A stretch of 64,000 nt of DNA from Undaria pinnatifida (Eukaryota > Sar > Phaeophyceae > Laminariales > Alariaceae). Each line of letters starts with the position of its first letter. The first letter of the stretch is position 1. The stretch spans positions 14,250,392 to 14,314,391 of the forward strand of contig JABAKD010000029.1 in assembly GCA_012845835.1 (NCBI GenBank). The letters run 5' to 3'. The notes under the pieces were generated by a model. That model made no database searches. It was not told the origin of the DNA and saw nothing but the letters and a program-made list of their open reading frames with translations. Positions 938-63,902 of the stretch are shown here, piece by piece. The position numbers and the translations under genes were made by a program.

Positions 938-1801
938 CTACAACCCGTACGATGCCAACCGAGACTTGGAAACGCCTACAGCGGCAGCAAGCTTTACGGC
1001 CTTCCCTTCGCCCTTCTTCGCCTTTTTCTTCCCACGCTGCCCACCATCTCCCTCCTTACCACTAGAAACCCCGCCACCGCCGCCACCTCCACCTTTACCG
1101 CTAGACCCTCGGCGAGTTTTCTTAATAGAACCGCCTCCCACCACGGGTGCCGGCGCCGTTTGGCCGGCTTTGCCGCTGTCTGCTATTTCAGCGCCCCCCT
1201 CGTGAGCAACCCTGTCCTTATGTGACTCGTCCTGCGCCTCCTCGTCATCCCCGGACAGCCGGCTGCGTTTCTTGCCTCTCTTTTTCCTGCCGCTGCTGCC
1301 GCCGTCTCGATCGTCGTCTTCGGGATTGGTCGCCCCATCCACATCCTCCACCGCCGACATGGGTTGCACCCTCGGCACCAGCTCTGCTTCCTCTTGCCCG
1401 TCCTTACCCCCGCCCGAGCCCACGCCGGCCTGCACCCGCTGCTTCTTCTGCCCCTTCTTACGCCGACGCCTCTTACCTCCTGCTAACTCCGCCGTTACTG
1501 GCGGTTTCGAACCGTCACCGGTTGAGCCGTCCGCTTCCGGAAGGAGTTGCGGCACTGCACCGGCAACGGTTGGGTTTGCCGCCAACTCGGCGGGTGCGAT
1601 AGCGGAGGAGGAAGAAGACGCCGAGGCTTTCTTCTTTCCGCGGCGCCTTTTCTTTGAACGCAGGGCCTGCATCTCCGCCTCGGCGGCTGCTTCCCTCGCC
1701 TTGACCTCCTCTCGAAGTTGTCGCCGCCGACGCGCGTCTAGCTTGGGCTCGTCCGTGCGGTAGGGCGCCAGTTTCTTCAGCGGCACGTACTTGTTCAAGT
1801 C
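938..1801 (-). CDS. KRI1: KRI1 exon 11, C-terminus
   Basis: Acceptor CTTTAAG. Reads DLNKYVPLKKLAPYR, then a low-complexity Lys/Arg/Gly/Glu tail of about 260 residues with repeated KKRRRGKKK-type nucleolar basic runs. It ends SRLASYGL and TAG at 938-940. The basic tail is longer than in compact fungal Kri1 proteins. Confidence 0.93.
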   Translation of the reverse strand, partial: DLNKYVPLKKLAPYRTDEPKLDARRRRQLREEVKAREAAAEAEMQALRSKKRRRGKKKASASSSSSAIAPAELAANPTVAGAVPQLLPEADGSTGDGSKPPVTAELAGGKRRRRKKGQKKQRVQAGVGSGGGKDGQEEAELVPRVQPMSAVEDVDGATNPEDDDRDGGSSGRKKRGKKRSRLSGDDEEAQDESHKDRVAHEGGAEIADSGKAGQTAPAPVVGGGSIKKTRRGSSGKGGGGGGGGVSSGKEGDGGQRGKKKAKKGEGKAVKLAAAVGVSKSRLASYGL

Positions 1802-4800
1802 CTTAAAGGGATATGCACAAACAGGGGGGCGGGGGGGGTGCTCATTATCGCGCACGGTCGTAGACTACAGACCATTGACCCTCGAATACCTGCATTGCCG
1901 GGGCGGATGAAGAACGACAGGTTTTCGCCGACAATGGGGGGTCGGGGGTAGGAACCCACGTATTTCGGGCGGCCCTAGGGAAAAGGGTGTAACGTTGATT
2001 GGTCAAGACTCGTCAGCAGAACAGACACGGGTGCGTCAGTGTTCTGTGTTCCGAGAATGCAAGTTGCCGTCTACTGCGGGTCATCATGCTGTACATGACT
2101 TATCCAGGGGGTATCGACTCTGGCGTACTCGGCCACCAAACCTTGCTGTGCCATTTACACTCACGTAGATATTCGGGTGTACTAAAAAACCCTCTTGGAC
2201 ATGTCCTCAGTACTAAAAGAAGAGCAACCGTAAATTCTTCCCTCAAAATAGCCCAGTAGTCCCTCATTGGGGGGAGGGGCGTGAGCTATGTTACAAACAG
2301 CTTGGCCAAAACGCATCTACTCGTGCAGTAGTAGCCCGGGCACGCGCTACGCAAGGCTTCGCTAGGGCATTTAGCGAGCGCGACCTCGGCGCGACATGGT
2401 GAGGCGGGCAGATCAGCAGCATCTGTGGATGGAGATTACAGCATTGTACCTCGCCAATCTGTGGGCGGAAATATAACAGTGTAGATTATATACATCACCC
2501 AATTTGTGGGATGATTTGTAGCATGGTATACACCTCACCAATCTGTGGGCGGAGATGGTAGCCTCGTGGCGCACCATGCAAAGGGCGTCTCACCTTGTCG
2601 TCGGCCAGCAGAATCTCCTCCGGTGTCAGCCCGAAATCGTTCGATTTTACCTTCGTGTACTTGAACCTGCGAAAGGGCAACAACAGCACAAGGAGGTACC
2701 AGTACCAGCTTATAGCGAAGCCAAGCACGGGACCTGCCTCACGCCACGCCATTCTTCGAAGTTGATATGATATGATATGATATGATATGATATGATATGA
2801 TGTCATATGATATGATATGATATGATATGATATGATGTCATATGATACGATGCGATATTATATGAAATGATATGATATGATGTGATATGATATGAAAAGA
2901 TATGATATGATGTCGTATGAATTTATTCATATCATATCATATCATATCATATATATGAAATGATATGATATGATGTGATATGATATGAAAAGATATGATA
3001 TGATGTCGTATGAATTTATTCATATCATATCATATCATATCATATCATATATTATATGAAATGATATGATATGATGTGATATGATATGAAAATATATGAT
3101 ATGATGTCGTATGAATTTATTCGTATCATATCATATCATATCATATCATATCATATCATACCATATCATAAAATATCATATCATGTAACAGACGCACGCT
3201 AGGGCAGAGGAGAACCAACCATTGTTGTATTTGTTAGGCTCCTCGCACCATTCAGGAGCTCCTTCACCTCTCCCACGAACTCATTTACCTATTAATAGTG
3301 TAGGGAAAAATGAAAGTGATACCATATACTACATATACTACAAGGTTCCCCTTGGGATGCGTATATACCATATACCATACAACATATAACATATACCATA
3401 TACCATATACCATATACCCGATGAACACCATGGCCTAGGTATACATCGAAAAAATACCATTTAAAAAAAACGAAAAGTCCGACGACTTTGGGTCATTAAC
3501 CCTTTTAGCGCCGCACTCCCGACTTGGGTACAAATGACTTGAAGTTACAACTTACATGTAGGACTTGGAAATGGGTTAAGGAGCCCCTTCATTCAGAAAA
3601 CGTTTCAGCCAAAAAAATGTTTACCTCTATCGTAGCATGCGTCAATAGTCCAATAGTCCAATAGTCCAATAGTCCAACAGTCCAATAGTCCAATAGTCCA
3701 ATAGTCCTCCTTTCGCCCCTTTAGGACTGCGTCAACGTTTTTTGGGGACAACTTTCTTGGACTTAGTGTATACGACAGTGTTTTAGTATAAGGGAGGGCT
3801 ATTAGCAGACATGCGGTTACCCGGCGTAAACTGCGCGCTGCCTAGCGGCGTTCGTTGATGCGATCGATCGGTTCAGCAAAATATCACATCTCTTCAATGA
3901 GGGCAAAACGTTCGCCTTGGCTCGTCCGCGCGAGCAAAAACACGAGGCAGCAACCGACGGCCCTCGTGGCTGCGGCAGCGAAAAAACACTTTCGAATAGG
4001 CAAAAAACACAACCCAAAACTGCGCCGACGACTCCACCACCCTGGTGAAAAACAACCTTCCGCCGTAGAACGGCCTACTGGGCGTGCTCTGTGACACGGG
4101 AAGGGTTGGAGGCCAAAAACGATACCTGCGTTCTCACTGCCACGCGGTGTTTTGAACCGAGCTGGACGGGAAAAAGCAAAGACGGCCACAAACTTCGCCG
4201 GTCAGCCCCGGCTGCCAAAGTAGTATTCACAGGCTGTAGGGGTCGAACATGTTAGCGCGCAGCACGCGCTGTCACCAGGGAATAATGGTACGTACCAAAA
4301 ACGTCAGGATGTGGCACTTTGACCGCATGATCGACGGCAATTTTGCAATAATTTACCTAGACTTGACGCGAAACTACCAGGTTTCGGTATACAACGATCG
4401 GTTTGACACCCTTGACGGATGGACGCTTTCCCTTGACTAACCGTCTCCTGGCATATTTGGCAGGCGCGATGCGTTTTCAGGATACTGCGGGCAACCCTCA
4501 GAGAACAACGCTCAGCAAAGCTCGCAAAAACGCCCCCAACAGCGGCATCAAAGCCGCGTCAGTCAAAAAACGCCACAAGGACGAAAACCACTGTAGGAGT
4601 GAAACCAGATCTGTATGAGGCTCCTCTCTCAACCCCGTACCCCTCCCCATACTAATTCGAAGTGATTTATCCCCAAGAACGGGTTTCCAGATGTAAAGGC
4701 ATTAGGGAGCTCTTACGCCTGGCCCAAAACCTGACCACATGGATGAGGAAAATAAAAGTGCAACCACCACGCGTAACACGAACAACATTACAACAACACA

Positions 4801-7800
4801 AGGGTTTTTTTATTGCAATATCGGGTTACCGTGCGTTAGTCTATGAGTACTCGACGAGCGCCGACGGTCAGAATAAGGATGGCCACAAAATTCCACCCCT
4901 ACCAGCGTCACAAACAACCATTGCGCCTTGCACGGCACATAAAACGAACCCAGCCCACCTGCAAGGGATGTCCCCGATGATGTCCTCGTAGTCCAGCTTG
5001 TACAGCTCGTCCAACAGTTGCTCCTTCTGCGCGCCCACTCCACCGAAATCCTCCCCATCTTCCCCCCCCTCCTCATATTCTTCCCAATCCTCCTCTTCTT
5101 CTTCGCCCCCTTCCTCCCAAGTACCGTCGCCCTCCTCGCGCCCCTCCCCCTCCAAATTGGCAGCAGTTTCGTCTCCGTTCTCCGCAGCTTCGTCCGCCCC
5201 CGCGTCGCCATCGTACTGTTCGAGGTCGCCGAGTCCCTCCAGAGGGTCATCCCCGGGTTTCCACCCGTCGTCGGCGTCTTCGGCGTTGTAGTAGCTGTCC
5301 CCGAACGCTTTTTCGGTCACCGCGTCCCATCTAACCCACAAAAATATACCCGCCGGGGATGAGAAACGGATAGGGTTTATTTGGAGAGGAACCATTTACA
5401 GGAGCTATTATATGCGGTTCAAGTGTGGTTCGAGCGCTCAGGGATGGTGCTAGTGTAAGGGCTAGCGTTAGATATACGGTTGAGCTTACGCAAGATTTTC
5501 TTACCCCGGTTTAAGCGTGGTTTGGGGATTCAGGGTTAGGGTTTTAGTGCTCTATGGTTAGGAATAGGGCTGGGTCAGACATTACTATGCCGGCTTAACC
5601 CCCTTTAGACACCCGAAATCCCGCCCTATATTAATTTCAACTAATGTGCCACCGACAACGCCTTTCCAGTTGAAAGGTGTTGCGTGTGGGTTGACCCTTG
5701 AGGGTTAGGGTTAGGGATGCGCATGCTCAAATCAAATTCCAAAAAAATGTCCCCAAAATCGTGTTTCCAGTTGGAGAGGCGTTTTGCGTGGTTTGACCCT
5801 TCAGCATTAGGGTTCCCTAGGGATGGGCACGCTCCATCGAAATCAACCCGTTGGAGTTTGTCTGGAGGGGCACTCTTGATACACACGACCCCGAGGGAGA
5901 GTACCCCAGGTCGGACACTATTCATAGTGCAGTGGTGGAGCCTATAGAAGGCGGTGAAGTGCGAAGCGATTTTGGCAGCCCTGTATCGAGAGACCACCCT
6001 ACCCGTTACAAGGCGGTTGATCGCCATATCGAGATTATAAAGTTGCCTCAATACGGCGATGCCCGCCCTGTCGATTTCATACTGCGCTTTTAGTGTACAG
6101 TGAAGCGTGATATTCAGCCAGTGGACGCCATAGAGTACTGCACCGAGGGAGACACGCGTGCGGGAAGGAAAGAACGATACAGTAACTTAGCAGTACCAAA
6201 AAGTAACTCCGTGAACATCAGTGATGTCAAGAGCACTACAAAAAACACACACAGCAGAGCAGGCAGGGGCACACACGCCTCTTGCATTTCACGGGGTACT
6301 GGCACGATATATTGTTTTTAAGCTGATTGTCGTACAGATATCGCGGAAAATGCACGACCATAGCCATGCCCTTCTGTACTGACAGTACTCTTCGTGTACC
6401 TTCGGGATATGATCTAGGGGCACGCGTATTCTTGCAGCATTAGCAGCAGCAGCAGCAGCAGCAGCAAGGGTGTGACGCATCTTTTTTCTCTCGGGCGGGA
6501 AGAAGCAAAGAGCTCTTGGAGAGCTTGCAGCAGCAGAAGCAGCAGCAGGGGTGTCATGTACCTCTTCTCTCTCAGGGGGGCAGCAGCAGAGAGCTTGCAG
6601 CAGCAGGAGCAGCAGCAGCAGCGGCGGCAGCAGCAGCGGCAGCAGCAGCAGCAGCAGCAGGGGTGTGACGTATATCTCATCTCTCAGGGAGGCAGCAGCA
6701 GAGAGAGGTTTGGTACTCATGTGGAGGCAGCCATGGGCCGTGAAAAGGGCAGGGCGGATACCGCCCTAAACAGGGCCGACCCCGCCCTGTATAGGGTCCG
6801 CATCTATATAGGGCGGTAGTCGTCCTTAATCAGGGCATCTGTCGTGCAAGCCGACTTCGGTCGCCTTTCTCGAGGTGCCGTCCGATTCTGACCGTCTTTC
6901 GGATGCATCAATACTATGCACCCGGTACAGAATAAATTTGTGGTTACACGATTAGGGGTGACGGGTATGCCTGCTAGGGTTGCTTCGCCGTGACCGCATC
7001 CCGCCTGCTCCATCAAATCCAACCCGCCTGGGATGTTCGGGAGCTAAACTATATATATGGACAAGAGCCCGCGAGAGAATGCCACAGGTTAGACAATATC
7101 ATACACCGGTTTGGGTGTGTTTGGAGGGCTAAGGGCTACGGCTGGGGCGAGGATTGCGTTGAAGTACTGTCCCCGAACGCCTTCCCGGCAATGGCACCCA
7201 CTCCATCGAAATCCCTACAAAATAAAATACGGGGACCTCGTACATATTATTCGTACAACAAGTGTGTTTTGACTGAGTGAACACGGCACGCAACCCGCCG
7301 AGGATACGAAAGCGTTTGTCTGGAGAGGATTGGAGAGAGAAAGAGATAACTGGAGAGAGGAAGAGTGTATTGGAGAGAAGGAGAGAATATTGGACAAAGG
7401 AAGAGAGTATTGGAGAAATGAAGAGATATTGGAGAAAGGAAGAGATATTGGACAGAGGAAGAGTTTGTCGGACAAAATAAGAGTTTATTGGAGAGAGGAA
7501 GGGTTCACACTATTATACCACATTGTACTACCATTTAATGACACGGGCCCGTGCAAGAATGATTACCACATTATTTTACTATTATACTAATATACTATTA
7601 TACTATTATAACACTACACTAGTATACCGGTTCGAATGTGGTTTGAGGACCCAGAGACAAAGTTGATTGATTGACGGACAGTTTGATTGACTGATTGACG
7701 GACTATTGATAGTTCATTTCCTGGTTGATTGACGGGTTCATTGACAGACTGGATGACCGGTTGATGGACTGATCGACACCGTGTCTAGTTGGTCGGTCGA

Positions 7801-10800
7801 TTGATTGACTAATCTAATCAATCGATTGATCGATCCGTCCATCCATTAAATCCTGTGTGGTTGATGACTGATTGGCTAATCAACTGATTCAACCCCCACC
7901 TTTCTGCGTCAAAGTCTCCCTCGATCAGCGCTTGGGCGTCCTCCCCCACCCCATCCGGCTCGCCCCCGACACCTCCGCCTTCGCCGTCATCGACGAGGGC
8001 GCCGCCGCTCATTTCCTGAATTGCCTGCAACCGCCTCCGTATCTCCTCGCGCTTCAGATTCTTCAATCGGCGCAGCTCGGCCTCTTTTTTCTGCCGCTCT
8101 TCCGCCTTGCGCGCCCTGGGGAAGTGGTGATGGGAGCATTGAACAAACAAAACCGGAACCAAAAAAAAGGAAAACGAACAAGAAAAATAAAAAAATAAAA
8201 CAACGACGAAACATAACGGTTTGCTCTTCTGTCGGTCTTCTTCCGCCTTGCGCACCCTGGGGGAGAGTCGAGAGAGCAATGTCGATAGTGGACAACCAAA
8301 AAAGGCGAAAAATCTAGTTTTGTATACATCCTCTGGCGGATGGTGAACAACAAAGCTCAAGCGCGCCACACTTTCACGTAGTTTCATACATATCAAGTGT
8401 GTCGATTAACTCAATTGTATTAGCGAACCCGGCGCTATTCATAGCTAGCGTGTTCAGTTCCCATGGAAATGACAGGAGCGGGAGCTGTCCCTGCCGGCAG
8501 TCCCCGTTACTACTCCAGCAGCGCACGCTGCGGTTGGATACGGATACTTGAGCATGTCGACCCCACCCAACCTGACCCCTGGAGATTAGATGCGCCGGAG
8601 ATAGCCACCCGGAAACCCATCCCTCGGTGTAGCGTGGGACTTGCGTGCGCTCACCCGCTAACAAAACCCCCCGGCCATGAGAAAACAGCCTTCCGTCGGA
8701 TTTAGTCCAGTTATGGCCCAGACTTCTCATTCGGGCGTCGGTCCTCGGGAAAACAAAGAGGAAAAAGGAAATGAAAAGGAAAATAACCAGCACACTAAAT
8801 CGAAAAACAGCAAAACAGCAAAACATTGCGCGTCCTCATTATTCCGGCGCTCTTTCGCCTCGCACAGCCTGACGAGGTTGATATGGCAACAACGCATATA
8901 TGCCCCCAGTATACTTCACCCCCCGAGTATACTCGCAGTATGGAAACTACTTTGTACTGCGGGTACTGAGAGTATTGCAGTATCATTGGCCGAGACACTG
9001 CGAGTACTGGCACCTCGCCTTGAAGGTTCGCCGGTTGGAAGCATTGTATTTCATGTTGCTCTTGCTCTCGAGCCCCCTTACTCCCTCCACAGTCTGCGGT
9101 CCACTCTTTCTTTTTGATCGAGTGTCGAGTCCTTCGCACGTTTCCCTCCCTCCCTCCCTTCCCTCCCCCCTTTCCTTCCTCCCAGTCCCCACTCGTCGCG
9201 CCAACTTCTGCAGTAGGGGTAACAGCAACCCCGCGGGGTCAACTAATCTCCGCGTACGGCTGCCCCGCCAACGCGCGCGCGCAATCCCAGTCGTAACCCA
9301 GTCGGAACCCAGTCGTAACCCAGTCGTAACCGAGTCGTAACCGAGTCGTAACCCAGTCGTAACCGAGTCGTAACCCAGTCATAATCCAGTCGTAACCCAG
9401 TCGAAACCCAGTCGTAACCTAGTCGTAACCGAGTCTTAACCCAGTCTTAACCCAGTCTTAACCCAGTCTTAACCCAGTCTTGACCCAGTCTTAACCCAGT
9501 CTTGACCCAGTCTTAACCCAGTCGCAACCGCGTCCCATGCTACGGTGGAGGGAGGCATAATATTATCGGGTGAACGGGGAGAATCCTTTGTCGACTGAGG
9601 TATACTCCAGCCAACATTGTTGCATTCCCATGGGTGTGGTATACATCTGGTATTAATAGTATTGTTTTATCGTTGTTTGCGGAGTGCGCGGACAATTGTT
9701 GCGGGAAAAACAGAGCCCCCCCCTCGCCCCCCCCCGCTATCATACCTGCCTGGTTGGTGAAAACCCTACGTGCTCCATCCCGGAATAGTAGGGATGCGAG
9801 GGTCTATGATCATACGACTACGGCCATGCACGACAAAATGGAGTTACAAATACGTTTTCCTTTCCATTTTTGTTGTTTTCTAACCTGGTTTTCTCGTGGG
9901 TATGTTGGCGTTGGGTTATGGCATTCGTCGGTTTCAATACTCGTCGGTTTCAAAATATTCGTCGGTTTCAATATTCGTCGGTTTTGACATTCATCGGTTT
10001 CAAATATTCGTTGGTTTCGGTTTCAACATTCGTCGGTTTCAATGATATTGATATATACACATTCCAACCAACACCAATTTGGAAATCGCAAACACCCTAA
10101 ATGTCTCAAACACCTCTCGGGTGAGATAGAGGTTTCATTCACGTTAACAACCGACAACAATCAGAAGCCCATCGTATCGTACTACTATTAATAGTAGCGT
10201 GTATCCCACACAAGTCTTCTTCGTGGCGGCATAAGCAGCAAATGCGAGCCTGCGGGCGACAAGCACAACGCAAACAAAAAGCACAACCCAAATCATCTCT
10301 TCTAATGGCAACTCACTTTCTGGACTCCCTTTCTCTTTTGCGGCGGTCATCTTTCCTTCGCATCGACCCAGCAATGTTCCGCGAATGCATCGCGATTTCC
10401 CCGCCCCCCTCCTGCGAAACGCACGCCACAAAAACAACAAAAAGCAGAAGGGCGTGCCAACGTTATGCGAGTTCAGAATGAAAAAAATAAAGCCATCCCA
10501 CGTAGGGGTGCAGCAGAAGATTCTAAGAAGTTTCTAAGCTCCTAACATTAGGAGCTAGCTCAATATCATCTCTATCATCCATCATCATCCATCATCACCC
10601 AAAACGCGATGGCTTCGAAGGCTTTTTTTTGTTTGCGCAACCCTGCCCCAAGGTTTCCATTTGCTATGAGCAAGTTCAACACTCCTAACAAAAAAAATAT
10701 TGTATATTGTACCATACTAGTAATGACCGATATCATGATTTCCATGCTTGAGAAGTTGAACCGGTGAACCAGTCAGAACGTCAGAAGGTCAGAAGGTCAG

Positions 10801-13800
10801 AAGAAACCTTTCGTCCCAAAACCTTCAACACCTACCGTGGGATGACTCAATATTGATAGTAAGTACAATCCTTATTATATACAGTAATACGTTAACGTCG
10901 TGGTAGTGACGTCCAAATGGACCTTTGAAAAATATCTTGGTATAACACCCCCCCCCCAAAAGCTGCGACTCCCGAGCTCCACTCGGTCTCCCCCGACTCG
11001 CCGTGCCGCCAGGTTCCACCCACACAGCAGCACTACGACGTGCCGGCGAAAGAACGGCCGCCGGTGCACCACCTCGGCGAGGGGGGAGCGTGGAAATCGT
11101 CCTCCCGGGGACGGCTCGCTTGCCCCCCCCCGCGCTTTTTCTTCGTCGCTTCCCGCTTTTTTTTTTTTCCAACTAAATTAAACTTTCGAATTGCTTTTTG
11201 GCCACTGGAGCCATGGAAACGAGACGACAAGCGCGCCTGCGTCAACAGCAAGCACAACAACACCGGCACCAATCACAGCAGCGTCGAGCCGTCACCGTCG
11301 TCCGGCGCTCTCGCCGTGCGCAGAATCGGCAACGCGAGAACGATGCCCAAAGCTCTCGCCCTCAGCGAAATCGAAAACGCGACAACGACGCCCGGCGCTC
11401 CCGCTATAGGCAGAATCGAGAACGCGAAAACGACACCAGGCGCTCTCGTCGTCAGCAAAATAGGGATTGCCAAAACCAGGCCAGGCGCTCGCAGCATCGA
11501 CAGAACCGGCAACTCCATAACGCCCGGCGAAGAGATAGGGTGCCTCCCTCACGCTTCTTCATGTCTGCTCTTCCGCTCGAGGACATCTTCGAGGGAGAAT
11601 GGCCCCGGCACATCCTCTCTGCGCGGACCGAGTGCCCTTCCTGCTACGCTCTCCTCTGGGCAGGTCCAGGTAAGACTTCGTACATATTTACAGAGCAGCC
11701 CGTACTTCTCCCCGTCGTCTTACACTGCTGTACGAGGTGCGTATTATCATTGCTTCATATACGTCCTTCAGTACTTATTATTTGCAGCACTTCTTCTCTG
11801 CAGTATTCCACGTTGGGTACTCATCCTCCCTGCGCGGACCGAGTGCCCTTCCTACTACGCTCTCCGCTGGGCAGGTCCACGTAAGACTTCGCACATACTT
11901 ACAGAGCAACCCCGTACTTCTCTCCGTTGTCTTACACTGCTGTACGTTTTATCATTGCTTCATATACGTACTTCAGTACTTATTATTTTCAGTAATACTT
12001 CTCTGCAGTACTCCACGTTGGCTACTCTAACCATTTACGTCCTTACAGCAGTACCTTACGTTGTCTAGCACTGCTGTTGTACCTCGCGCGCTTTACGTTG
12101 TCTTACACTGCTGTACGTTTTATCGTTGCTCTACGTGCATACATACTTCAATACGTATCAATATTATACTGGTATGTACGTATTGCAGTTGATTTATATA
12201 TTTATTGTATACGTCCTTGCAGCGGTGTTATACATTGTCTTACACTGCTGTACGTATATCATTGCTTTACGTACACACTTACCAGTACTTCTTACTCTCG
12301 GAGTATTATTTTCAGTCGTACTTCTCTGCAGTACCCCACGTTGGCTACTCTTATCATCTACGTCCTTACAGCAGTACCTTACGTTGTCTAGCACTGCTGT
12401 TGTACCTGGTGCGTATTTATCTTCTCTCCGTTGTCTTATACCGGTACTTGCTGTACGTATTAAATCTATTTTTTACCCTCTTTATTGTTTACGTCCTTGC
12501 AGCAGTGCTTTACGTTGTCCAACACTGCTGTACGTGTTATCATTGCTTTACGTGCATACTTACTTCCATACTTATTAATCTTATACTGCTGTACGCAATT
12601 TACCTTTTTTTTTGCCCTCTTTATTGTTTACGTCCTTGCAGCGATGTTTTACATTGTCTTACACTACTGTACGTATATCATTGCTTTATGTACGTCGTGC
12701 ATACTTCAGTACTTTATTGTTTAAGTAGTACTTGACGTTGTCTTACGATGCTGTACGTATTGCAGTTTATTTATGTGCACACTTCCAGCGGAACTTCACG
12801 TTAGCTATCCTGCCTTGGACGTCTTACTTCGCTTCTTTCTCAGATGGTCGAGAAGCTCCTTCCCTCTGCTGCCATTACGGTAAAGTTCGCCTGTGGCCCC
12901 TCCTGCGAGCCCGGATCCACTTCTCCTCGACTTTTTGCGGGGGGACACGGCACAATCCGGAGCATTCCTCGCCAGCATTCGGCGCATCAATTCCGCTTTC
13001 TCCTTCACCTCCACCGGTTCCAGTCTTGGCGTTCTCCTCCGCCAGGTTGGGTTCGCGCACGGCCCGCCGACATTCGTTATACAGGGGGCGTTCCACCACT
13101 ACCTCAGAAGCCCTATGCCGCAGGCCGGGCACCACCCACAGTATGCCGAGAGATATTACCACAGCGCTGAGGAAGAGCAGCTCAGGTATCGATTGAATAA
13201 CTCCGAGGAGCTAAGCACTTCGCTTCATGCAGGGCCCATGGCCACCGTAAAGGGTATCCTCTCGCGGGTAAACCCTTATGTCAGCATCTACCGATCAGTA
13301 ATCGACATTTACAGGTCGAGCGAGATCGCCGCGCCGCGAGAGCTGCTGAACTCCTCATGCTGAGAACATGCGTATCTTCCTGCGCACCAGCAGCACGCCC
13401 AATCCACGTCGGTACAACGCCTCCTCCGCCCCGATTGAAGTTGCTGCGATCCTTCCGGACTCAAACGAAAAAGCCCGCGGAGGCCGCGACATTGTCGTGC
13501 ATGATTCTCGGCGTGGATTGATGCGGCTCTCCGCCACCCACCCGTCGTATGAGCCTCTGGCGTACCCCATACTCAACCCCACCGGTGTTTCGGGCTGGCA
13601 CGGCAACATCGACCTCGGCCTGCAGCAAGGCGGTGGTGTTCATACTCCCCTTTGCCCGCAGCCGGACAGGGGTGCTCATGGTGGCGTGCCAGGCGACCGC
13701 CTTCACCGCGACGACGGACGTGACCAGCCGGCGCCACGTGAAGGCGGAGCCAGGGGTAGCGAGAGAAAGAAAGTGTCACAGAGGGAGTTCTTCACCTATC

Positions 13801-19800: not shown

Positions 19801-22800
19801 GCGTATTGATACTGCGGTGCGCGTGTTGTTTTCTACCAGGAAGTCGTTTTTTCTTCCACCAAGGCGCTTTTTTGGGGGGGGGGGGTTGTTTCCACGGACC
19901 GGATTCCAGCGAAAATAACTCAATGCTACTCGTAAAACATCATCAACGTCACCATCGATATACAGTACCGGAATACAGTACCGGGATACAGTACGGGTAG
20001 ACATCTACGAAGTGAAAGGAGGTGAGCGTGTCAAGACGTCCAACGTTCGGGGGGGGTGGGGCGCAGGGTGATGCGGGGTAGGGGTTTCGCAAAGCACCAG
20101 GAGAGTCCGCCGTCGATCGACTTTGCGGTGATACTCCGAAGTGGGCTATTTCGTCGGCCTATTTATTGGCCGATCAATTGCGATTGTCAACGTTACATAT
20201 TGTGGTGGGCCACTTCCACGTAAGCGTTGCAACCCAGCAACCTGGGCACCAAAGACGAAACACGCTAAAAGGTAAAACTATGATGTATGGTACGTGAGCG
20301 GGGGGAACACCGCGAGAGAGCCTCTCAGACGGCGCGCAACTACCCAACGAACAAACGAACGAACAAACAAACAAACGCAAAAAAGACATTGTATATAGTG
20401 GGCACCCCGATTTAAGAGCGCCCAGGATAAAAAAAATCGGGACTCAAAAGCCGTGAAATCGGCATGTCCCGCCTATACTAAAAGCTATGCACTTTCCACT
20501 ACAGATAAGAGTAATGCGTGTTAAGAGCGCTTGTTTTGGCTTGTGACGGGGCGCTCTTAAAATCGGGGTGGCTAGCCAATGCTACATACATATTTTAGCT
20601 CCTCCTTTGCGATATGGTTGGATTGAAGTCCCGCGGGCGTAGCAAGTAGAAAAGTGGGGAGGGGGAGGGGGGGGGGGGGGGGGGGGTACTCAATTTGTGC
20701 ATGGCCGTAGTCGTGTGACCATAGACCCTCGCATCCCTACTATGCCGGGACGGAGCACGTCGGGTTTTCACCAAACAGGCAGGCATTGCTTTGCACCAGG
20801 CGCGAAGCGCCGTGGGGTGTTCGGCGAGTCGCAATGAAGGGTGAACTGCATCCTTCCAAGAACCGCTCGTAAGACGGACTCCGGCACCTTGTGCATACTT
20901 TCTTGATCATGGATGACCGCGCCAATGAGTTCCTTTGTTTTCTGGAGTGGCCACTCGAGAGACAGCAATGGGCATTACTATGTAACCGCCTCGTGGGTGC
21001 CTTACCATATTCACACTACGTGATGCGATCATTCCCCTTGTGAGGAGTTAGGGTTCTCTACCCCGCACAACATTATCTGACTCGATAACCATCATGGTGA
21101 CCGTCGGCAACCAAAAAAAAAAAAACGGTACCGTGGTTGTCTAGCTCACGCAGTGACTGTCATGTTTTACAGCGTCGTTGTCAACCAACGCCAACCCCAA
21201 TATATACACATAATGTGTCACAGCGTCAGTGCCAACCGAGGCCAACTATTATATATACATACATATAAAAGGGAAACGGGGGAGGGTACTCAGTTTGTGC
21301 ATGGCCGTAGTCGTATGACCATAGACGGGGGGGGGGGGGGTGAAACCGAAAAACAAAATAGCCACCTGGCAAATAACCCAGCAACTACCACCGACCACCC
21401 CAGCCAAGCTTATTGCTGAAGTCTATAGATGAACGCGTGTGTGCACTGCCCTGGAGGACGAACGGAACGCATTCCTTTGTGTACGTGGTATTCAAAACTA
21501 AAAAAAGACAGGAAGAAGTCAATGTGACGAAGTCAACGGGCAACGGAGGCGTTTTTTTAGAAGAAAAATAAGTTGGGGTCACCTAGGGGTCTCCTTGGCG
21601 TTGGGGTCGAGCCAGCGACGGTTCGCCACAAAGTCCCTAAGGAAGGTGTCCTCCTCCCCCCCGTCTCCCGCTTCGGCCATCTTATCCGCCTCCTTCTTCA
21701 GCAATTCCTCCTCTTCCGCCGCCTCCGCCGGCGTTTCGCTCCTCACCTGCGCCGCCGTCATCCCAAGCAACGACAGACAAAACAAAAAGCGCACGGATAT
21801 ATGTGGGCAAACCGTTGGGGCGATCGACGAGACACTATAAGGCCGTTCCACGCGATAAAAACAAAAGAAACGCCGCAAGTAGATATGGGGAACGTGTTGG
21901 GGTGACTGACTAGAGGCTAGAAGGCCAATCCACGCGATAAAAAAAAAAAACATCGCAAGAGACGGGAAGCCTGCTAGAGGCCGACTGTACCCTAGAAAAT
22001 ATCATAGAATGAAGCGTTCCACGCGATAAAAACACAAAAGCACGCCGCGAGACTAGATGGAAAAACCGTTGGGGCGACCTACGATACGCCAGAAGACCAT
22101 TCCACGCAACAGCAATGCAAAACACGCCGCAAGGAGATATGGGAAACCTGCTGGGGGGTGCGAGTAGAGGCTAGAAGCATGAGCGATGAAGCGATAAGCA
22201 GCGGGGGAAGAGAAGGGTGGCCACTCCAAGCGACGAAAACAAAAACACGCCGCACATGCAGGTGGAAAGCACTGTTGGGGCGACCTCCGGAATCGACCTA
22301 AAAGCAGGGACGGGCAGGCCAAAAACTTCCTGTCGGTAACTCATCCCACGGTCGGTCGTCGATCTGATTGGTCGAGGGTTGCCTTACAGCCACCCGGGTA
22401 TTTCTTTCTAACGCTGCCGAAACACGCTGCAGAGCTGCGCGACCGCCCCTGCCGACCTTGAGCTCCCCAAGGTTAAGACTAGAGACGGGTTTGGGGTCGG
22501 TTGGATGTGGGCAGACGAGGATTGAAATTGATCACCGAAGACCGGCAGGCGAGTTGTTGCCTGTCCGTCCTGTATTTAGGGGAAGGCGAGAACGACGAGA
22601 CGCTGCAATGACGAATGAACGCTGGCGAAATGAGCAGCGGGAGGAGAGACAGAGTATCCGTCTTAGTTGGTTTGATTTTTTCCTCGGTGTACTCTTCCAC
22701 TCAAGATATACTGAAGCCTGTCCCGTGTCCTATGACCACGGACTAGAATAACGGCAACGAAGTCGAGGTCAGGACAACAACAGAGCGTACCGCTGTGCCG

Positions 22801-49900: not shown

Positions 49901-52900
49901 ACTCGACCCGCGAGGCACTTTCCGGCGCTGAGAGACGCGGTGGCTCGCTTGAGGGCCGGCTTGAGGCTAGTCAGGAAAGGCTCGAGGCGAGTGAGCCAGA
50001 GACGAGCCGTCTCGAGCGAGAGGTCGAAGACGCGCGGTCTAAATTAAGCGCGGCGGAGGGGAACGTGAAGAGACTGGAAGAGGCGATGGCGGAAACTGCG
50101 GAAAATGTTGCCTCTCTCCAGCAGAGGTTAGGTGATGCCCTCGCGGAGGGCGTTGAGTACGCTGACGAGGCTATCCGGTCGGAGGAGCGACTCCGCAGCA
50201 GCGAGGCGGACTGTGCGGCCCTGTGGGAGGAACGAGAGGAGGCCAAGGGGAGGCTGTGCGCGGCGTTTGTCCAGGGCCGCGCTCTCGAAGAGAAGCTGGA
50301 GGAGAGCGTGACGGAGGCCATGGGGCTTAGGAAGGCGCTAGCGTTCGCGGAGGCTCGCCTGGCGTCCTCTGTGGAGGACGGGGACGAGTACGAGGAGGAA
50401 TTGGCGGCGAGCCGAGACGAGTGCGCGGCCCTCAAGAGGGACTTGGAGAAGGTCGGGGAAAAGTACGCGAAAGCTTCGTCTGAGGCGCGGGTTCTCATGG
50501 CGTCTCTCGCAGACGTCCGGCCAGAGGTGGAGCGCCTTGAGGGGGAGGTGGAGGGGGCGCAGTGCCGCCTGGACGAGTGGAGTGCGGAGGAGGAGCGGCT
50601 GAGGGCGGAGCTTGATCTGCGCGAGGCGAAGAACGTCGCGGTGAAACGAGAGCTTATGGAGGCGCTTGCCCACCTGGACACCGGCGCCGCCGACTTCGTG
50701 GCGCTTGAAACAAAGCTCTGCGAGACCGAGACCACCTGTGACCGGCTGAGGTCGGCCCTGGAATCTACGGAGATGACTATTTCGGAGGTCACCGCGGACG
50801 CTGATAGGGCTCGGCAAGACCTCCACGGGGCTCTTATCCGGTGCACGGGGCTGCAGGAGCGGCTCTCCGCGGCAGATGAGCGAATTACCGCTGTCGTGTT
50901 CGAGCGACGCCAGCTGGAGGAGAGGCTTTCCGAGAGTGTCGCCAGGGGCACGAGGCTGGAGAGGACGCTGGAGGAGGTTGAGGTCGGCCGCAACCAAGCG
51001 ATAGCAGACCGGGATAGGCTGCGTGGTGAGCTGGAGGAGACGGCGCTCGAAAGCGCGGTTTTCCAAGAGCGGCTTGCGGCGAGCGAGGAGGCGGCCGCGA
51101 CGGCGCACGGTTCTTCCGAGGAGGCGGAGGAGCTGAGGGTGAAGCTGCAGCAGGTTACCGCGGAGTTCGAGGTGCTAAGAGAGTCCCACGAGGCTGCCCT
51201 CATGAAGGCGAACAATTTCTCGACCCTGTTTAGGGGGCTTGAGACGCGCATGAAGGGAGTGGACGCCGAGGTGGAGCGGCTTAAAGCTGAACTCGTCGAG
51301 AAGGATGGCCGCTTGGAGGAAGCGAACTCGGCCGTCGCTAAACACGAGAATGACATCGTAGAGCGCGAGGCAGAGGGCGCGCGGCTTCTTACGGTTTTGG
51401 ACGAGATTGGGGCTAGCTATGCCGCTGGAAATGCGACGACAGCGGACCTCAAGCAGGAGCTGGCTGATATCCAAGGGATTGGGTTACAGCTGGGCCAGAA
51501 GTTGACCGCCGTGGTGACGGAGAGGAATAAAGTGCAGGGGAAGCTGGAGGTGGCGCAGGCGTCCCTTGCTGCGTCCTCGGCGAACAGGAGGAGCCTTGAA
51601 AGGGACCTGGAGATGGCTCTGTGGGCCCTTGAGGAGGCTAGGCAGGAGAACGATGCCTGCCGCAACCACTTAGGGGAGCTGCAAAAGGTGAAGATTGGTT
51701 GGAGTGTGTGCTGTGCGACGTTTTTGCTGTGAGGTGGTTGGATTGTGTGAACCTTTTTTTCCTTGCGTTGTACCACTTGGATGAGCTGGTAAAGGTAAGG
51801 ATTTGGTGGCGTGCGTCTTGTGTGGTGTTTTTTTTTCGTTGGGGGGCGAGCTGCAAAGCATTGTGTATGTGTGTTTGTGCGGCGTTTTTTGTCTTGCGTG
51901 TGGCTTCGATTTTCTAATGGGAGGGGGCATGCGCCGACGTAAACATGATCCTGCTGTAACTGTTGAATTTATCCAATGCGGTTGTTTTGTTTGGTGCAAA
52001 GGGCAGAACGCATGAGACAGAAAGTAGTAAAAGTACCATCCATCGGCTAGGTGAGGCCTCTGCGGGAAGTGCCGACGATGTCGTCGCCCCGTCTCAATGC
52101 AGTAGATGTGGAGTTTTCCGTTCAACTGTAAACCAAAAGGCCGTTATGACCGCCGTTTGGGTATCTCGGATTGAGTCATCCGCCGCCCGTTGGCCCCTTC
52201 CGTGCTGTACATCAAATGCTCATTTCGGGCCATCATCTGTGGGGCACTGCCTCAGCGACTCCGGGTTACGTTAATCTCTGCAGTTTACTCTCGAGCAGTG
52301 AGTATGCCTAGTATGTGCTCATGGTAGCATTGTGAATATTGCTACTTCTCGAGCACTGAGCATGCCTAGTATGTGCTCATGGTAGCATTGTGAATATTGC
52401 TACTGTCGCAGTATACAATTCTGCATTCTACACAGGATGTAATGCGAGGTACTACAGCAGTAGATGTTGTTACTGCAGTACTACCGGTATTCGTGTAGGA
52501 CTGCAGTAACTCCTGCTTCGAAACCACGTGGCACAAGGGGTGATATTGACGTCCAACTAATCAAAAGTGTCCTTGCCTAATTTGAAGGGTTTTGTCCCAT
52601 AGCGAGGGTGCTGTGCTAATGAAGTAATGAAGGGTAGCGTTTTTATCCATACGAAGCTAGTTGTGGGTGTGCTTCCATCATTTGTTGGATCTGTTGGCGA
52701 AACGCCATAAATAAATAAAAACTGAGGTGTCCATTTTCAACAGCTATTAATAGTGTCCACCGGGCAGAATGAGCATGATTGATACTGGGTGTTCCCATGA
52801 TTGGTGGTTGTTCGTGCTTTTGTTTGAACTTTTCGATTTTGTCTGTTCAGCTTTTCTACGGAATCTGTTCTTAAGAACCTTTCGGAATTTTGACCGGATT

Positions 52901-58900: not shown

Positions 58901-61900
58901 GACCCCGAACCCCACCAAAGATGCCGGTCGCCCCGGTGGCGTATGAGGTCATCCTCGAGCCTGGTATAGGTCAGTTTCGTGAGTTCACGTCCCTCCGAGT
59001 GCATACTCGTATAAATTCGTTGGGACTTCTTCTTGTGCACAAATCGACTTGCGGGAAGCGCGAGAGCGTGAGTTAGCAATAATCGATGAACAATCGACGA
59101 TTGCTGGACCCTATGCGCGATAAAAATTGAATGCAAGAACCGGGGGAGAGAAGGGAAGACACCTGTGACCACGGCTTGTCCAGAAGCTTGAAAGTAGAAG
59201 TGTGAAAAACCCAAAAACCAAACAACCAACAATCAAAAAGGGTCAGGGCTATGGTTAAAATCGGCGTGGGTCCGGCTGACGAGCAAGCTTGGAATTGATT
59301 GTTAGGTTGCGCTGCAAGAATGCGGTCGTGCAGAGCCGCGCTGCGGATAGCGCTGCATGTAGGGGCTCTCGTCCTGCCACCCCCGAAAATAAACGCGGTT
59401 GAATACGGTACAAAAACCTTACTTCGCCGGCTAGTATTCAATAGTTGATGTCCAATGAGGTACAAAACCCTAACCCCCGCCCACAAAGCAACGCTCTACG
59501 ATATCGTACGATAAAACGCCATTGAACGCCCTACGGAATCCGCAAATAAGTCGTGAAGCGTTGTACAAAAATTGCCTCCCCCGCAAGTAAATGCCGTCGA
59601 ATGCCGTACGAAACCCTCAGGAGCTGGAGAAGGAAAACGCTCGCCTGGCCAGCGAGAACGCTACCCTTTCTTCGGAGCTTGCGCTTGGCACGGCTGTACT
59701 GGAAGCCGTCGGGGTTATCTCTAAGGACATTGTCGCCGCTACTGAGCGCAGAAAGGTGAGACCGAGTCGCCATCCTCACCGACATTGCCAGCGTCACTGC
59801 CACCGCCGTCTGTTGAACTTTTTTTGGTGTTCACACCTGCCGCCCAATCATACCCGCAACTGTTTGTTTTGTCGTACTATTATACTTTTTGTCATATGAA
59901 GATATAGCGTAGATGCCGTTCTGATGGAAATGGAATATCCTTCCATAAAGCAGTGGTGTCTATGAGCTTCTTCTGCCAACCATTTCCCCATGTCCTTTCC
60001 CCGCGCCTTCTTGTTTTTTTCTACTGCTTCCTCTCGCTATGATACATTTGTTCGTTTTAGCTGTTAGTCTACTCTAACCCTCATCAACCTTTCCGCCTAT
60101 TTCACAAAAAAATATTATAAGGACGCCAGCCGTGACTTCGACGAATTTCGAGTTAATACTCATCTTTGCAAGCTCCGTCGTTAGTACTGGTAATATACTA
60201 TATGGGTGAGTTTTTTATTGGGAGGGGTCCTATTTATTTGTTTTCGTGCGGCATGGTCGTAAGTGGTCGATGTTGAAGCTGGAGCTCATGCTGCACGTTG
60301 TCGGGCCGCCAACATCCTATTGAATTAGTGCTATTAGTCTATATCAGGCATAAGCAAACGAAGAAAAGAACCCGACACACTAGGGGTATGCTAGAAAAGG
60401 ATAAAACGGGGATACGCTCTGAAATGGTCAAAACTAAAAACGAACCTGTTGGGTGTGTGATTTTTGTACCAACTTGTAAAATACCTGGTGACAGTATTTT
60501 GAGTTTTCTTATTTCTTCTTGATTTTAGTATATGATCGCCTGTCTGAGCCTAAGGTACGAAATGCGGTGTCGACAGAAACAACAAGTTCGTTCACCGTGG
60601 GATAGGCGCCGAAAATTTCTCGCGTCTGAAAGTGCCGGACGGGGAATCTAGACGTGCTGGAAGCAAAAATCATGGAAGGGTCGCGGGCAACAGCTTGCGT
60701 CACGCTTGTGCACGTAGTGTGTACCAGAGCGCAAACGAAATGACATGGCATGACATGACATGACATATGATACAAGTTACCGTTCGGGACAGGGTTCACT
60801 TTGTATCCCCGGGGCATCGCAAGTCGAAGGGGGGACATGGGCGTTCCAATGATGTGTATAGACTACTGTTTTTGCTACTGCTGTTGTTGTTGTTGTTCTC
60901 ACATTAACTCGCATAATCAAGTCCGTGGTCACAGGACAGGCTCCAGTCACTCTGGAGCTGAGGAATATGCTTCGTGTACCTGGTATGAGGTCTGACGATC
61001 TGTACTTGATTGTTGGTTTGAGCGTGACACACTTGTTGTCGTGGTTCGACCCTTTGCCGTGCACCAACTACACACACATACACCGTGACTATTGGCACGA
61101 AGGCAAAAGCTCGAAGTACGGCTGGCGTTTTACTGCTGCTGCTAGACCACACTGTTAATTTTGCATACCACCTAATTAACAAGTACACCGCACTGCACCT
61201 CACCACTCTTTGGGTTTTTTTGGGTTTCTCAGAGTGATGGAGGTGGGCTCGCGCCGGGAGCAAGGAGAGGAAGAGGTCTCCAGGTGCGCAGGCCATCGGA
61301 GTCAAACTCCTTAAGCCCTCCGTCCCGGGGCATTTCGGGCAAGGATAGTGTGGGGGGGGGCGAAGAAAACGCCTCAGGACAAGCCCGGAAGCGCAACAAA
61401 TCGGTCTTTCGCAGGAGAAGGTCTTCGCCGGAGGTGGGTCTTGCTTCTTGTTATTTGGAGCGAAGCGAAAGTCTAATTTCCGGTTGACGCAAGCGTAAAA
61501 ACACTAGGGGCTTCCTTTCACCGTCGCGTGACCGAAGTTCCGCCCCGCGTGTCCTGCCCGACCACCGATCAATTCGTAAAGAGAAATAATAGTTTTATCG
61601 TGAACATTTGTGAGTTAAGTGAGACAGCAGCGCGGTCACGGTGGCAGCACAGCAGCACAGGGTTGGGTTGGGTTGACGTCAGTTACTAATATCCAGGGCT
61701 TGTCACGGGTCGCGTCACTTCTCGCGGATCGGGTCAGGTCATGGTGACCCGACCCGACCCGGTGAATTTCGAAACCCTCCCGGCTCGACCCGACCCGTCA
61801 GATTTCAAACACCTCCTGACCAGACCTGGCTCACCGTAGGACGTTTTTCTGGTGTGGATCGTGAACCGTGAAAAACTCTGCAAATATCCACGAGCTAGAG

Positions 61901-63902
61901 CTACAGTTTTTTTTTTTTTTTATCCTCCGGCGGATGGGGAAAAATAAAGCTTTAGCTCACCACACTTCCACGTATTTTCATACCCGTCGGAGCTTACAAC
62001 TTCGAGCAAAGCAAGTTACTAATTTTCATAGCGCGGAATAATAGGCACTCGTTTCGATGTGGCTAAAGCCGGATTTCTGTGACCGGCGACCGTTGTCTAC
62101 GAAAAGATACAACTGCGGACCGGCGGCTTTTTTGCTCGCCCGATCACGACCTAAGGGTTTCCTTTTTTGTTTGACTTCGTGCGGTATCGCATGACATGAT
62201 GTGCGGTGCGATGCTGCAGATGTTCGCCTTGCCTCTCATTAAGTAGCGAACACCAAATACATCAGCCACGGGTTCGTTCTGTTCAACCGCTTCCCGATTT
62301 TCTTCCTTGAAATGGGGCTGTACCATGCCATGCGGTGCGATGCAGGCGACGCCTCGCTTGAAGCTGCCGCAGGTACCGCAGCGGGCGGCGGTGGCCCTCC
62401 CCCGTACTATTTGTAGTATATTTTGCCGCAAGATAGCTGTCTTGTTATATTCTTTACTGAACAGTAAAAAAGTACCGCAGACAAACAATGTGACAAAAAA
62501 TGAAATACACCAGCTATCGTGAGTTATTTATGTTCAATCGCGATTTTTATGTACGAAGTATATGTAATTATTTCTTCCTTGAAATGGTGCGATGCGGCGA
62601 GTGATCGCCATATATCATAGAAATCCCCAATTTTGTTGGTATGGCGATGGCGTCAACCACTGTGGGCTCGTTTAGTTTAATATTTTCCTCCTTTTGTTTT
62701 ATCGTGTCTTTTTTATTTCTTGGTGTCGCGCGGCGCGGTGCTGTTCTGTGCGATGCGGCAGGTTATCGCCTCCCCCCTTTTGAAGTCGCCCCTGCCAGAG
62801 CTACCGCAGAAACAGCCGATGCGCCTCCACGAACGCCTTCTCGGCGCTCTGGAGATAGCCGAGTCCCCGTACCAACAAAAGATACACGAGAAGATGCAGC
62901 AGCAGCAGCAGCAACAACAGGAGCAGGAGCAGGAGCAACCACAGCAAAAGCAGCAACCAAAGCACCGACGGCTGAGCCAGGGAATGTCTCCCATCGGGAA
63001 GAACTATACGCAGGCCGTGTCCACAGGCGAGTTGTGTGTATGTTGTGTATGTCTGCGTGCCATTATTCCCTGTCTCCGACACAAGGTTAAGGTTGCTGTA
63101 CCCGGCCCCCCAAAGAGGATTCAAACGACGACGCGTATTTTCATGGCATCGCAATCACCCGTTTATCGTATTTCACCTCAAAAACTGTAGACGACCAATT
63201 TGTAATACCTGGTACGATCTACAAACATATCCGGTGTTGCTGTTTTTATTTGTGTATTGTGTGTATAATATGTGCTTCTTCCATGTTTCCACCACCAAGC
63301 CCTCGACAACAGGCCCACCCGTTACCGATTATTCGCGTCTTTACTGCTGTAGTGTACGAGCAATTTATAACATCTCCTGTGCCTACATATTTTCATTTCT
63401 GCCTTGTGTCCGCCCGTGTGCTGTTTGTATATTATTATAAAAAATGAAAATACACTCCAGCTGTGAGATCGAAGATTTCGTCGAAACTCCTCTTTGCAAG
63501 CTGTGTGTGATACTCCGATCGCGCGCATTACGAGTTGTGTGTCTTCATTAAGGATATAGGTCGGCGACTCCCCTTACAACTACAGTGTAGCTATCAGGGT
63601 CATAGAACATCTATAATGTCTCATGTTTCTCTTTTCGTTTCTGCCTTGTGCATGTCTGTGTGTGTGCTTCTTCCATGCCCCCGACACAAGGTTGCTTCTC
63701 TTCCATCAAGTGCGGCGGGACCGACGCGGGGTTTGGGGTGATAGACACATCGCCCGATTCAAGCGACAAGAGCGATCCCAGCCCTAGCCACAGCCAGCTG
63801 ATGGATGAGGGAGTGAGGAACAGCGTCCGCAAAGCCCTCTTCGCGCAAAAAATAGTGGCGGCGAGACCAAGTGCGAGACCAACGCCCGCTGGACCTGAGT
63901 GA
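43534..63902 (+). CDS. HMMR/RHAMM-like giant coiled-coil protein, at least 8 exons
   Basis: Supported exons: 43534-43965, 48607-51687, 52944-53096, 58274-58603, 59621-59755, 61233-61433, 62762-63016 (or 63026) and 63711 (or 63691)-63902. A further exon at 47306-47392 is possible. The internal junctions are in phase 0 and give about 1590 residues. The N-terminus MALFAKSKVERFQEEPP, then LGPGDYDP and VSLGFTASKG, resembles the HMMR N-terminal domain (basic start, RFN, PGxYD, vsF-KS) of spindle and centrosome proteins. A sperm-tail PG-rich motif is the alternative reading. The middle is coiled coil. The C-terminal third is rich in Ser, Gln and Arg, with basic clusters (FRRRRSSPE). Microtubule or centrosome binding is inferred, not shown. 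Confidence 0.78.
45574..45835 (+). repeat. Identical 131-bp tandem duplication
   Basis: GTACATACCACACGTGCTGC begins at 45574 and 45705. The two 131-bp units look identical. Each contains the GCTGTGAGATCGAAGATTT core of a dispersed repeat found at 53168-53312 and 63455-63605. Confidence 0.9.
47306..47392 (+). CDS. Possible HMMR-like exon 2
   Basis: Reads DMAGLVAILQARLDNRDLEN, YAARASPLV, 29 codons, phase 0 at both ends if the weak acceptor GGAAG is used, and donor GTACAA. Coiled-coil-like and in the right frame, but the splice sites are poor. Confidence 0.35.
48607..51687 (+). CDS. HMMR-like giant coiled-coil exon
   Basis: 3081 nt, 1027 codons, between TTAATCAG and AAG|GTGAAG. Almost wholly heptad-rich Glu/Ala/Leu/Arg coiled coil without Pro breaks. 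Three internal repeats of 66-71 residues start near 48844, 49057 and 49255 (LESETxxLxGRIKEL ... LRVVELRAAxVAGEE). Strong GC-rich codon use. A 461-codon minus-strand frame inside it is a shadow. Confidence 0.92.
51772..51806 (+). pseudogene. Ghost copy of giant-exon 3' edge
   Basis: Reads LYHLDELVK and then GTAAGG, against NHLGELQK and GTGAAG at the real edge. The following 60 bases are also similar. It has no usable acceptor except a possible microexon. Confidence 0.5.
52289..52404 (+). repeat. 58-bp tandem duplication
   Basis: TCTCGAGCAGTGAGTATGCC at 52289 and a near-identical copy at 52347, both ending ATTGTGAATATTGCTACT. Confidence 0.85.
52944..53096 (+). CDS. HMMR-like exon (51 codons)
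   Basis: After GGCTCTCAG: ECQLLREAGHNQAMGAATIL, AESRAREEETIARLKLSE, AESSREVALANKE, then GTGACA. Coiled coil, phase 0. Diverged copies of its 3' edge lie at 55212-55271 and 55341-55373. Confidence 0.88.
53168..53312 (-). repeat. ~145-bp dispersed repeat, minus copy
   Basis: Reverse complement of 63455-63605: CAGCTGTGAGATCGAAGATT to CCTTGGAACTACAGTGTAGC. Partial copies are at 25870-25925, 45600-45690, 45735-45820, 46034-46100 and 60136-60180. Confidence 0.75.
55212..55271 (+). pseudogene. Ghost copy of exon 52944-53096 3' edge
   Basis: Reads PKLSEDDSYREVALANKE, against LKLSEAESSREVALANKE in the exon. The donor GTGACA is replaced by ATTGCG, so it cannot splice there. A third, shorter copy (KREVTLAKKE) is at 55341-55373. 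Confidence 0.65.
58274..58603 (+). CDS. HMMR-like exon (110 codons)
   Basis: After CGACAACAG: VLRAMTDLDNASATILEMQA, then an Asn-rich low-complexity stretch and GISKKKSARLQ before GTGTGT. Phase 0. Confidence 0.82.
58604..59620 (+). other. HMMR-like intron with acceptor-derived repeats
   Basis: Diverged copies of the 45 bases before the 59621 acceptor (AAATGCCGTCGAATGCCGTA, then CGAAACCCTCAG) occur near 58725, 59391, 59440 and 59515. A dispersed GC-rich repeat is at 58858-58915. Confidence 0.7.
59621..59755 (+). CDS. HMMR-like exon (45 codons, leucine-zipper-like)
   Basis: After AACCCTCAG: ELEKENARLASENATLSSEL, ALGTAVLEAVGVISKDIV, AATERRK, then GTGAGA. Heptad spacing of Leu and Asn resembles a bZIP-type zipper. 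An array of acceptor copies precedes it. Confidence 0.88.
59756..61232 (+). other. HMMR-like intron
   Basis: Contains a fragment of the 145-bp repeat (60136-60180) and the truncated (CAA)n element (60882-60970). No gene. Confidence 0.65.
60882..60970 (-). repeat. 5'-truncated SINE-like (CAA)n copy
   Basis: Reverse-complement copy keeping only the last 90 bases and the tail, which reads as GTT repeats on the plus strand. It lies in an intron of the HMMR-like gene. Confidence 0.6.
61233..61433 (+). CDS. HMMR-like exon (67 codons, basic)
   Basis: After TTTCTCAG: SDGGGLAPGARRGRGLQVRR, a Ser-rich stretch, RKRNKSVFRRRRSSPE, then GTGGGT. The basic cluster could be a nuclear or microtubule-binding signal. 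Phase 0. Confidence 0.8.
61434..62761 (+). other. HMMR-like intron with acceptor-edge copies
   Basis: Contains a CCCGA-rich repeat (61695-61830), the second copy of the 8330 repeat (61920-61985), and copies of the acceptor edge of the next exon near 62195, 62320-62390 and 62585. Confidence 0.65.
62762..63016 (+). CDS. HMMR-like exon (about 85 codons, Gln-rich)
   Basis: After GATGCGGCAG: VIASPLLKSPLPELPQKQPM, RLHERLLGALEIAESPY, a poly-Gln run from a CAG repeat, then HRRLSQGMSPIGKNYTQA. The end is uncertain: GCC|GTGTCC at 63016 (phase 0) or a GC donor ACAG|GCGAGT at 63026 (phase 1). Confidence 0.7.
63017..63710 (+). other. Last HMMR-like intron
   Basis: Holds a plus-strand copy of the 145-bp repeat (63455-63605) and an upstream look-alike of the last acceptor (TCTCCGACACAAG|GTTAAG at about 63091). 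Confidence 0.65.
63455..63605 (+). repeat. ~145-bp dispersed repeat, plus copy
   Basis: Matches the reverse complement of 53168-53312 end to end. No clear terminal inverted repeat or target duplication. Confidence 0.75.
63711..63902 (+). CDS. HMMR-like terminal exon
   Basis: Reads CGGTDAGFGVIDTSPDSSDK, SDPSPSHSQLMDEGVR, NSVRKALFAQKIVAARP and ends TPAGPE, TGA at 63900-63902. The acceptor is CCATCAAG (63711, phase 0) or ACACAAG (63691, phase 1), each matching one of the donor choices of the previous exon. Confidence 0.75.
   Translation, partial: CGGTDAGFGVIDTSPDSSDKSDPSPSHSQLMDEGVRNSVRKALFAQKIVAARPSARPTPAGPE

Follow-up and report, generated by a model that had tools for sequence, protein, structure and literature searches.

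Diverged exon-edge copies in kelp introns, probably left by local tandem duplication that ignores exon/intron boundaries

Introns of the kelp Undaria pinnatifida contain diverged copies of the edges of their own exons, lying on the same strand and within the adjoining intron and in part including the splice site. It is highly probable that these copies are the product of a frequent local tandem duplication in non-coding kelp DNA, which is blind to exon/intron boundaries and leaves behind decaying exon-edge ghosts. According to this explanation, local tandem duplication would often strike non-coding DNA, producing the detected pairs, which are mostly 60–250 nt apart and on the same strand. Its breakpoints would ignore the exon/intron boundary, and a sizeable share of the events would capture some tens of exon-edge bases together with some intron. 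The copy on the intron side would remain unused with splicing keeping the original exon-proximal site, leaving the protein unchanged, and the intron would gain one or more units in length. The unused copy would then decay to a ghost edge carrying a ghost splice site. The sole use of the original site is suggested by the protein frame and the copies are presumably neutral; slippage, unequal exchange or repair may be the underlying mutational step.

The original prediction of such copies was made from the letters of one stretch of 64,000 nucleotides, which is called the window here. To avoid its choice of sites, chaperonin genes were picked without regard to the exon-edge pattern. The whole genome (511 Mb) was searched with PF00118, resulting in 81 exon-like matches, 79 of which were used after two isolated weak ones had been dropped. 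In the ten chaperonin gene regions the splice sites were set mechanically by GT/AG (or GC) and the reading frame, giving predicted gene models built from profile hits and GT/AG rules with 53 introns and 106 junctions; no junction was derived from exon pairs that were gapped or overlapping by more than 20 residues in profile positions. Each junction was aligned to its own intron, up to 1500 nt, with a threshold score of 32 and the expectation taken from introns of other genes. Junction 60-mers match their own intron at a score of at least 32 in 20/106 cases compared to 0.63 expected, and 40-mers consisting of the exon edge only do so in 14/106 cases compared to 0.09 expected. For the 62 junctions of the strictest gene models the numbers are 13 (60-mers) and 11 (40-mers), with 0.37 and 0.02 expected. 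The 20 positive junctions are spread over 7/10 genes and 18/53 introns and comprise 13/53 donors and 7/53 acceptors; three of the 20 (F8 donor, B2 donor, C8 acceptor) are weak under stricter scoring (score 21–28). A smaller sample of kinesin genes, covering 6/58 adjacent exon pairs from two regions with one weak model among the six, showed a copy at 0/12 junctions. The difference from 20/106 is not significant (P 0.22), but the result makes the prevalence outside chaperonin genes uncertain. Three rows from C2:16063521-16066784, where one of the genes has its second tandem copy, were excluded from the kinesin list. This kinesin gene is apparently duplicated about 29 kb apart, the match scores and the spacing being identical in C2:16034374-16037637 and C2:16063521-16066784.

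The excess is supported by several controls, the contrasts being compared by Fisher tests. In the wrong-side intron, i.e., the one across the exon, scores of at least 32 were reached by 2/68 of the 60-mers and 0/68 of the exon edges. Reverse complements reached this score in 0/106 cases for the 60-mers and 0/106 for the exon edges. Exon middles aligned to the adjacent introns gave 0/40 at a score of at least 32 and 1/40 at 28. Such copies are presumably absent because they would be damaging to the mRNA, and their absence at the threshold speaks against tandem exon duplication, in which a whole exon with both splice sites would be copied. Same-strand copies adjoining their source, as they characterize the class of tandem genomic duplications, were found: local direct repeats cover 11.5% of the chaperonin regions and 9.5% of the window, local inverted repeats 1.7% and 1.3%, respectively, and in dinucleotide-shuffled regions (one shuffle each) the repeat coverage is 0.0%. 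Over the whole window, 16% of all 50-mers have a same-strand copy scoring at least 32 within 1.5 kb, compared to 4% for inverted copies and 1.4% for distant stretches. In the self-alignment that had been proposed as a check of the original prediction, exon-edge matches far exceed the non-adjacent, wrong-side and shuffled controls.

Within the window, KRI1 is encoded on the minus strand (Pfam Kri1 E 1.8e-11, 7821-8405; Kri1_C E 5.8e-9, 2498-2857); a motif search for its exons 1, 3 and 4 located none of them. The plus-strand gene, which was named HMMR-like before, encodes a coiled-coil protein with weak Pfam matches. Junction 60-mers (30 exon and 30 intron bases) were aligned to 0.7–2.5 kb of the adjoining intron side, and P values were obtained by drawing non-adjacent sequence of the window 400 times. 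The features are as follows.

29494..29528, minus strand: 3' edge of KRI1 exon 2 with its junction, first intron base 29494; set by reading frame and donor CTGCAG^GTGCGA
29388..29438, minus strand: ghost of the exon 2 donor edge at an offset of 90 bases, GT kept
21583..21746, minus strand: KRI1 exon 5 (approximate), from open frame and GT/AG
21763..22290, minus strand: tandem array directly adjoining the exon 5 acceptor on its intron side, without a copy of the exon edge
7901..8115, minus strand: KRI1 exon 8 (Pfam Kri1, E 1.8e-11)
8224..8281, minus strand: near ghost of the exon 8 acceptor edge, score 51–55 (55 for the 60-mer, aligned at 8227-8281), P<0.0025, AG kept
8828..8891, minus strand: far ghost of the exon 8 acceptor edge, score 42–46 (42 for the 60-mer, aligned at 8839-8891), P<0.0025
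7156..7230, minus strand: exon 9 acceptor-edge ghost that includes about 34 coding nt (160-base query, score 49, P<0.0025)
6984..7035, minus strand: further exon 9 acceptor-edge ghost (60-mer score 37, P 0.005)
5628..5844, minus strand: intronic duplication with a period of 101–102, at most weakly related to the exon 9 edge (score 23)
2440..2556, minus strand: intronic repeat near the exon 10 donor, separate from the exon edge and containing no copy of it
48556..51687, plus strand: long coiled-coil coding exon, 1058-aa open frame starting at 48556, true donor after 51687
51772..51822, plus strand: ghost of the 51688 donor edge, offset 107, GT kept, score 50, P<0.0025
59376..59471, plus strand: repeats on the intron side, similar to the tract that precedes acceptor 59621, with the exon uncopied
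62197..62247, plus strand: ghost of acceptor 62762, score 46, P<0.0025
63054..63088, plus strand: ghost of acceptor 63691, score 39, P<0.0025, nearly all intron side

Ten junctions of these two genes had been named as carrying copies of the exon edge in the adjoining intron. For six of them a strong copy was found (KRI1 exon 2 donor, exon 8 and exon 9 acceptors, donor 51688, acceptors 62762 and 63691), two are partially supported, and the KRI1 exon 10 donor (2430-2560; score 21, P 0.19) and donor 53096/53097 (score 18, P 0.90) are unsupported. As nine further junctions of KRI1 and the coiled-coil gene, unnamed in the original prediction, gave no score above 23, only 6/19 junctions tested in the window score at least 32. 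The exon 2 donor is the clearest of the named cases, its copy 90 bases downstream being identical at 35/46 positions in an ungapped alignment (29393-29438; score 41, P<0.0025). The exon 8 acceptor has two ghosts, one of which is still readable at the protein level. At the exon 9 acceptor the copy at 7156-7230 stands, whereas the stretch at 5640-5850, which had also been assigned to the exon edge, is an intronic duplication that aligns to this edge weakly. In the coiled-coil gene the exons at 62762 and 63691 were placed according to the earlier gene model, and at 62762 the exon part alone has no significant match (P 0.37). For acceptor 59621 the intron-side match was recovered (score 28, P<0.0025), but not a copy of the exon.

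The exon 5 acceptor is similar in this respect. Copies of the junction had been placed at 21770-22290, and with 80 intron bases the alignment scores 42 (P<0.0025), showing a real tandem array on the intron side that abuts the site; the junction itself is absent from the copies (60-mer score 26, P 0.14; exon 40-mer score 26, P 0.03). A genome-wide search with this array, passing over very common words, returned one locus, and for this array, the one searched, the single locus speaks against an origin from a mobile element or introner.

Regarding the anatomy of the copies in the chaperonin genes, alignments with stricter scoring revealed that 15/20 hold 20–76 nt of exon, in most cases plus as many as 55 nt of intron. 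One of these 15 ends 16 nt before reaching the junction, and the remaining 5/20 hold at most 16 exon bases. The predicted tandem arrangement on the intron side applies to some of them. Several introns start or finish with head-to-tail arrays, the outermost unit of which contains the exon edge: intron 5 of gene C carries seven further donor-edge copies at offsets of 190–688 spaced by 78–87, the D2 array has a period of about 124, the E0 copies lie at 111, 231 and 400, and H7 is an acceptor array with a period of about 88. Exon-anchored copies identified by BLAST occur in 14/53 introns, filling 2% to 61% of them. Direct pairs cluster at a spacing of 60–250 nt, a range in which the chaperonin regions and the window together contain three inverted pairs; spacings below 60 nt are probably underestimated by the pair-finding method. 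Some copies are distant from their source (E0 at 400, A1 at 1222). Since the alignment extends over 80% or more of the spacing in only 77/268 direct pairs spaced 30–1500, a head-to-tail origin is presumed for most copies, and for the more distant ones in particular.

Local repeats cover 14–17% of the 40 exon bases nearest to the donor, similar to the intron beyond, and 1–3% at 60–100 bases inside the exon, a drop which fits selection against duplications within coding sequence. On the acceptor side the coverage in 20-base steps into the exon is 9.5, 6.5, 1.8, 5.4, 7.5 and 11.5%, showing no clean fall; the rise at 80–120 bases may reflect that many exons are there near their other end.

The original prediction ascribed the growth of introns to repeated tandem duplication across splice junctions. 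Own-edge, same-strand copies and arrays agree with tandem duplication as such, but the junction specificity was not supported: in a one-sided count in the same introns, 20/106 junction windows (18.9%) have a copy compared to 380/1868 interior windows (20.3%). The junction rate equals the interior rate, therefore nothing points to a targeting of splice sites. Stepwise growth by a process that targets splice junctions and adds each new unit there would explain that copies include junctions, both donors (13/53) and acceptors (7/53), and the identity to the exon edge does fall with distance in 2/3 arrays, i.e., in H7 (four copies, P 0.20) and E0 (three copies, P 0.33), neither being significant. 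This process is nevertheless unlikely, because copies of junction windows are not in excess over those of interior ones (interior windows drawn in place of junctions: expected 16.1 (11–21), observed 20) and because identity shows no significant trend with distance. The graded divergence that had been described is thereby not shown in the three chaperonin arrays, where copies further apart are not significantly less identical to one another (rho +0.34, −0.02, +0.17). Moreover, in all three arrays the exon edge is on average nearer to the copies than the copies are to each other (averages of identity matrices), a pattern to be expected from independently decaying copies and an exon that retains the old sequence. 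A birth of the introns by tandem duplication of exonic AGGT segments, with the ghosts as leftovers, has a mechanism that is documented for other systems (PMC3443670, PMC4974935). It would leave opposite exon edges at the intron ends, and unless such traces have decayed this makes it very unlikely here: at a score of at least 24, the upstream exon end was found in the last 100 intron bases of 0/53 introns and the downstream exon start in the first 100 bases of 0/53, chance being 0.17 in each case.

Boundary-blind tandem duplication followed by decay is further supported by the substitution pattern. In 14 ghosts, mismatches to the exon amount to 11.0, 10.8 and 19.8% at codon positions 1, 2 and 3 (P 0.005); the window rows for exon 8, where the same copy was found twice, were excluded from these counts. 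The mismatch excess at position 3 shows that the exon copy is under coding constraint and the ghost free of it, which supports the predicted decay of the old junction into a ghost that drifts. A retention of the copies as functional decoy or alternative splice sites could be suspected from the GT/AG dinucleotides, which are intact in 10/12 alignable ghosts, several of which also retain surrounding donor bases. As this retention matches the 9.5/12 expected under neutral decay and the ghosts differ from the exon also at codon positions 1 and 2 (11% each), such a function is quite unlikely. Finally, chance, low complexity or the common splice-site consensus can account for the failures of the exon 10 donor and of 53097 and possibly for 59621, yet as a general explanation it is extremely improbable, the matches being rare or absent in introns of other genes, wrong-side introns, reverse complements and shuffled sequence.

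Intronic minisatellites form head-to-tail arrays with units of about 80–150 nt. The kelp arrays resemble them in arrangement and unit size, and differ in that the outermost unit of some arrays holds a coding exon edge and a splice site. Gao and Lynch reportedly described internal gene duplication as ubiquitous in 2009, involving exon/intron structure. Boundary-crossing duplication and intron gain by tandem duplication have already been published (also PMC2809761). In the potato RdRp gene a tandem genomic duplication across an intron/exon boundary was reported (PMC4974935), and the duplicated segment spans one intron-exon boundary with its splice signals as in the kelp. The potato case concerns one gene with a new intron, whereas the kelp introns seem to lengthen, in several genes and with no new intron seen. 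Similarly, the intron gain by tandem duplication of AGGT exon segments summarized in a review (PMC3443670) and for Drosophila (PMC2891723) shares the local same-strand duplication including exon sequence and splice motifs, and differs from the tested kelp introns, which lack opposite exon edges at their ends (0/53). Single boundary-crossing duplications are thus known, while in the titles and abstract openings returned by searches of an open-access library no report was found of frequent exon-edge ghosts, of brown-algal introns growing in this way or of the prevalence seen here.

A bolder reading, which we consider possible but would rather doubt, is that in kelps local tandem duplication is one of the chief causes of longer introns and regularly adds further donor and acceptor sites next to a true one, in up to seven copies. 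If this were true, these genomes would represent an experiment of nature, at the scale of the genome, on the choice that the spliceosome makes among near-identical neighbouring sites. The copies described above point to a concrete route to longer introns without transposons, leaving traces that can be dated against the constrained exon. They also provide natural pairs of a true site and a duplicate nearly identical in sequence, which makes splice-site choice directly testable with RNA-seq. Furthermore, ghost edges resemble exon ends with good splice sites and may be a pitfall for gene finders.

The window also contains a Helitron-type element on the plus strand (13350-17622; Helitron_like_N E 4e-6, slightly below the curated cut-off; PIF1 helicase E 3.5e-61), which sits between KRI1 exons 7 and 6. 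Upstream of its coding frames lies a further duplication.

11611..11911, plus strand: duplication at an offset of 211, 11611-11700 versus 11822-11911, 83/90 identical

A Helitron zinc exon (11621/11832) had been predicted to show the same pattern as the gene junctions; the copy 211 bases on is real, and a zinc-binding exon was not confirmed, with no Pfam match in 10929-12065. Other repeats in the window include a dispersed repeat at 20657-21001, with at least about 40 further genomic copies of about 89–93% identity among the matches listed, and a related piece about 600 bases on (21278-21326). A 131-base tandem duplication at 45574-45840 is 100% identical and seems to be a local duplication like those described above that took place very recently, and a similar duplication lies at 52289-52404 (58 bases, 96%). 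At 28046-28323 a tandem array of a 21-base unit comprises about 13 diverged copies.
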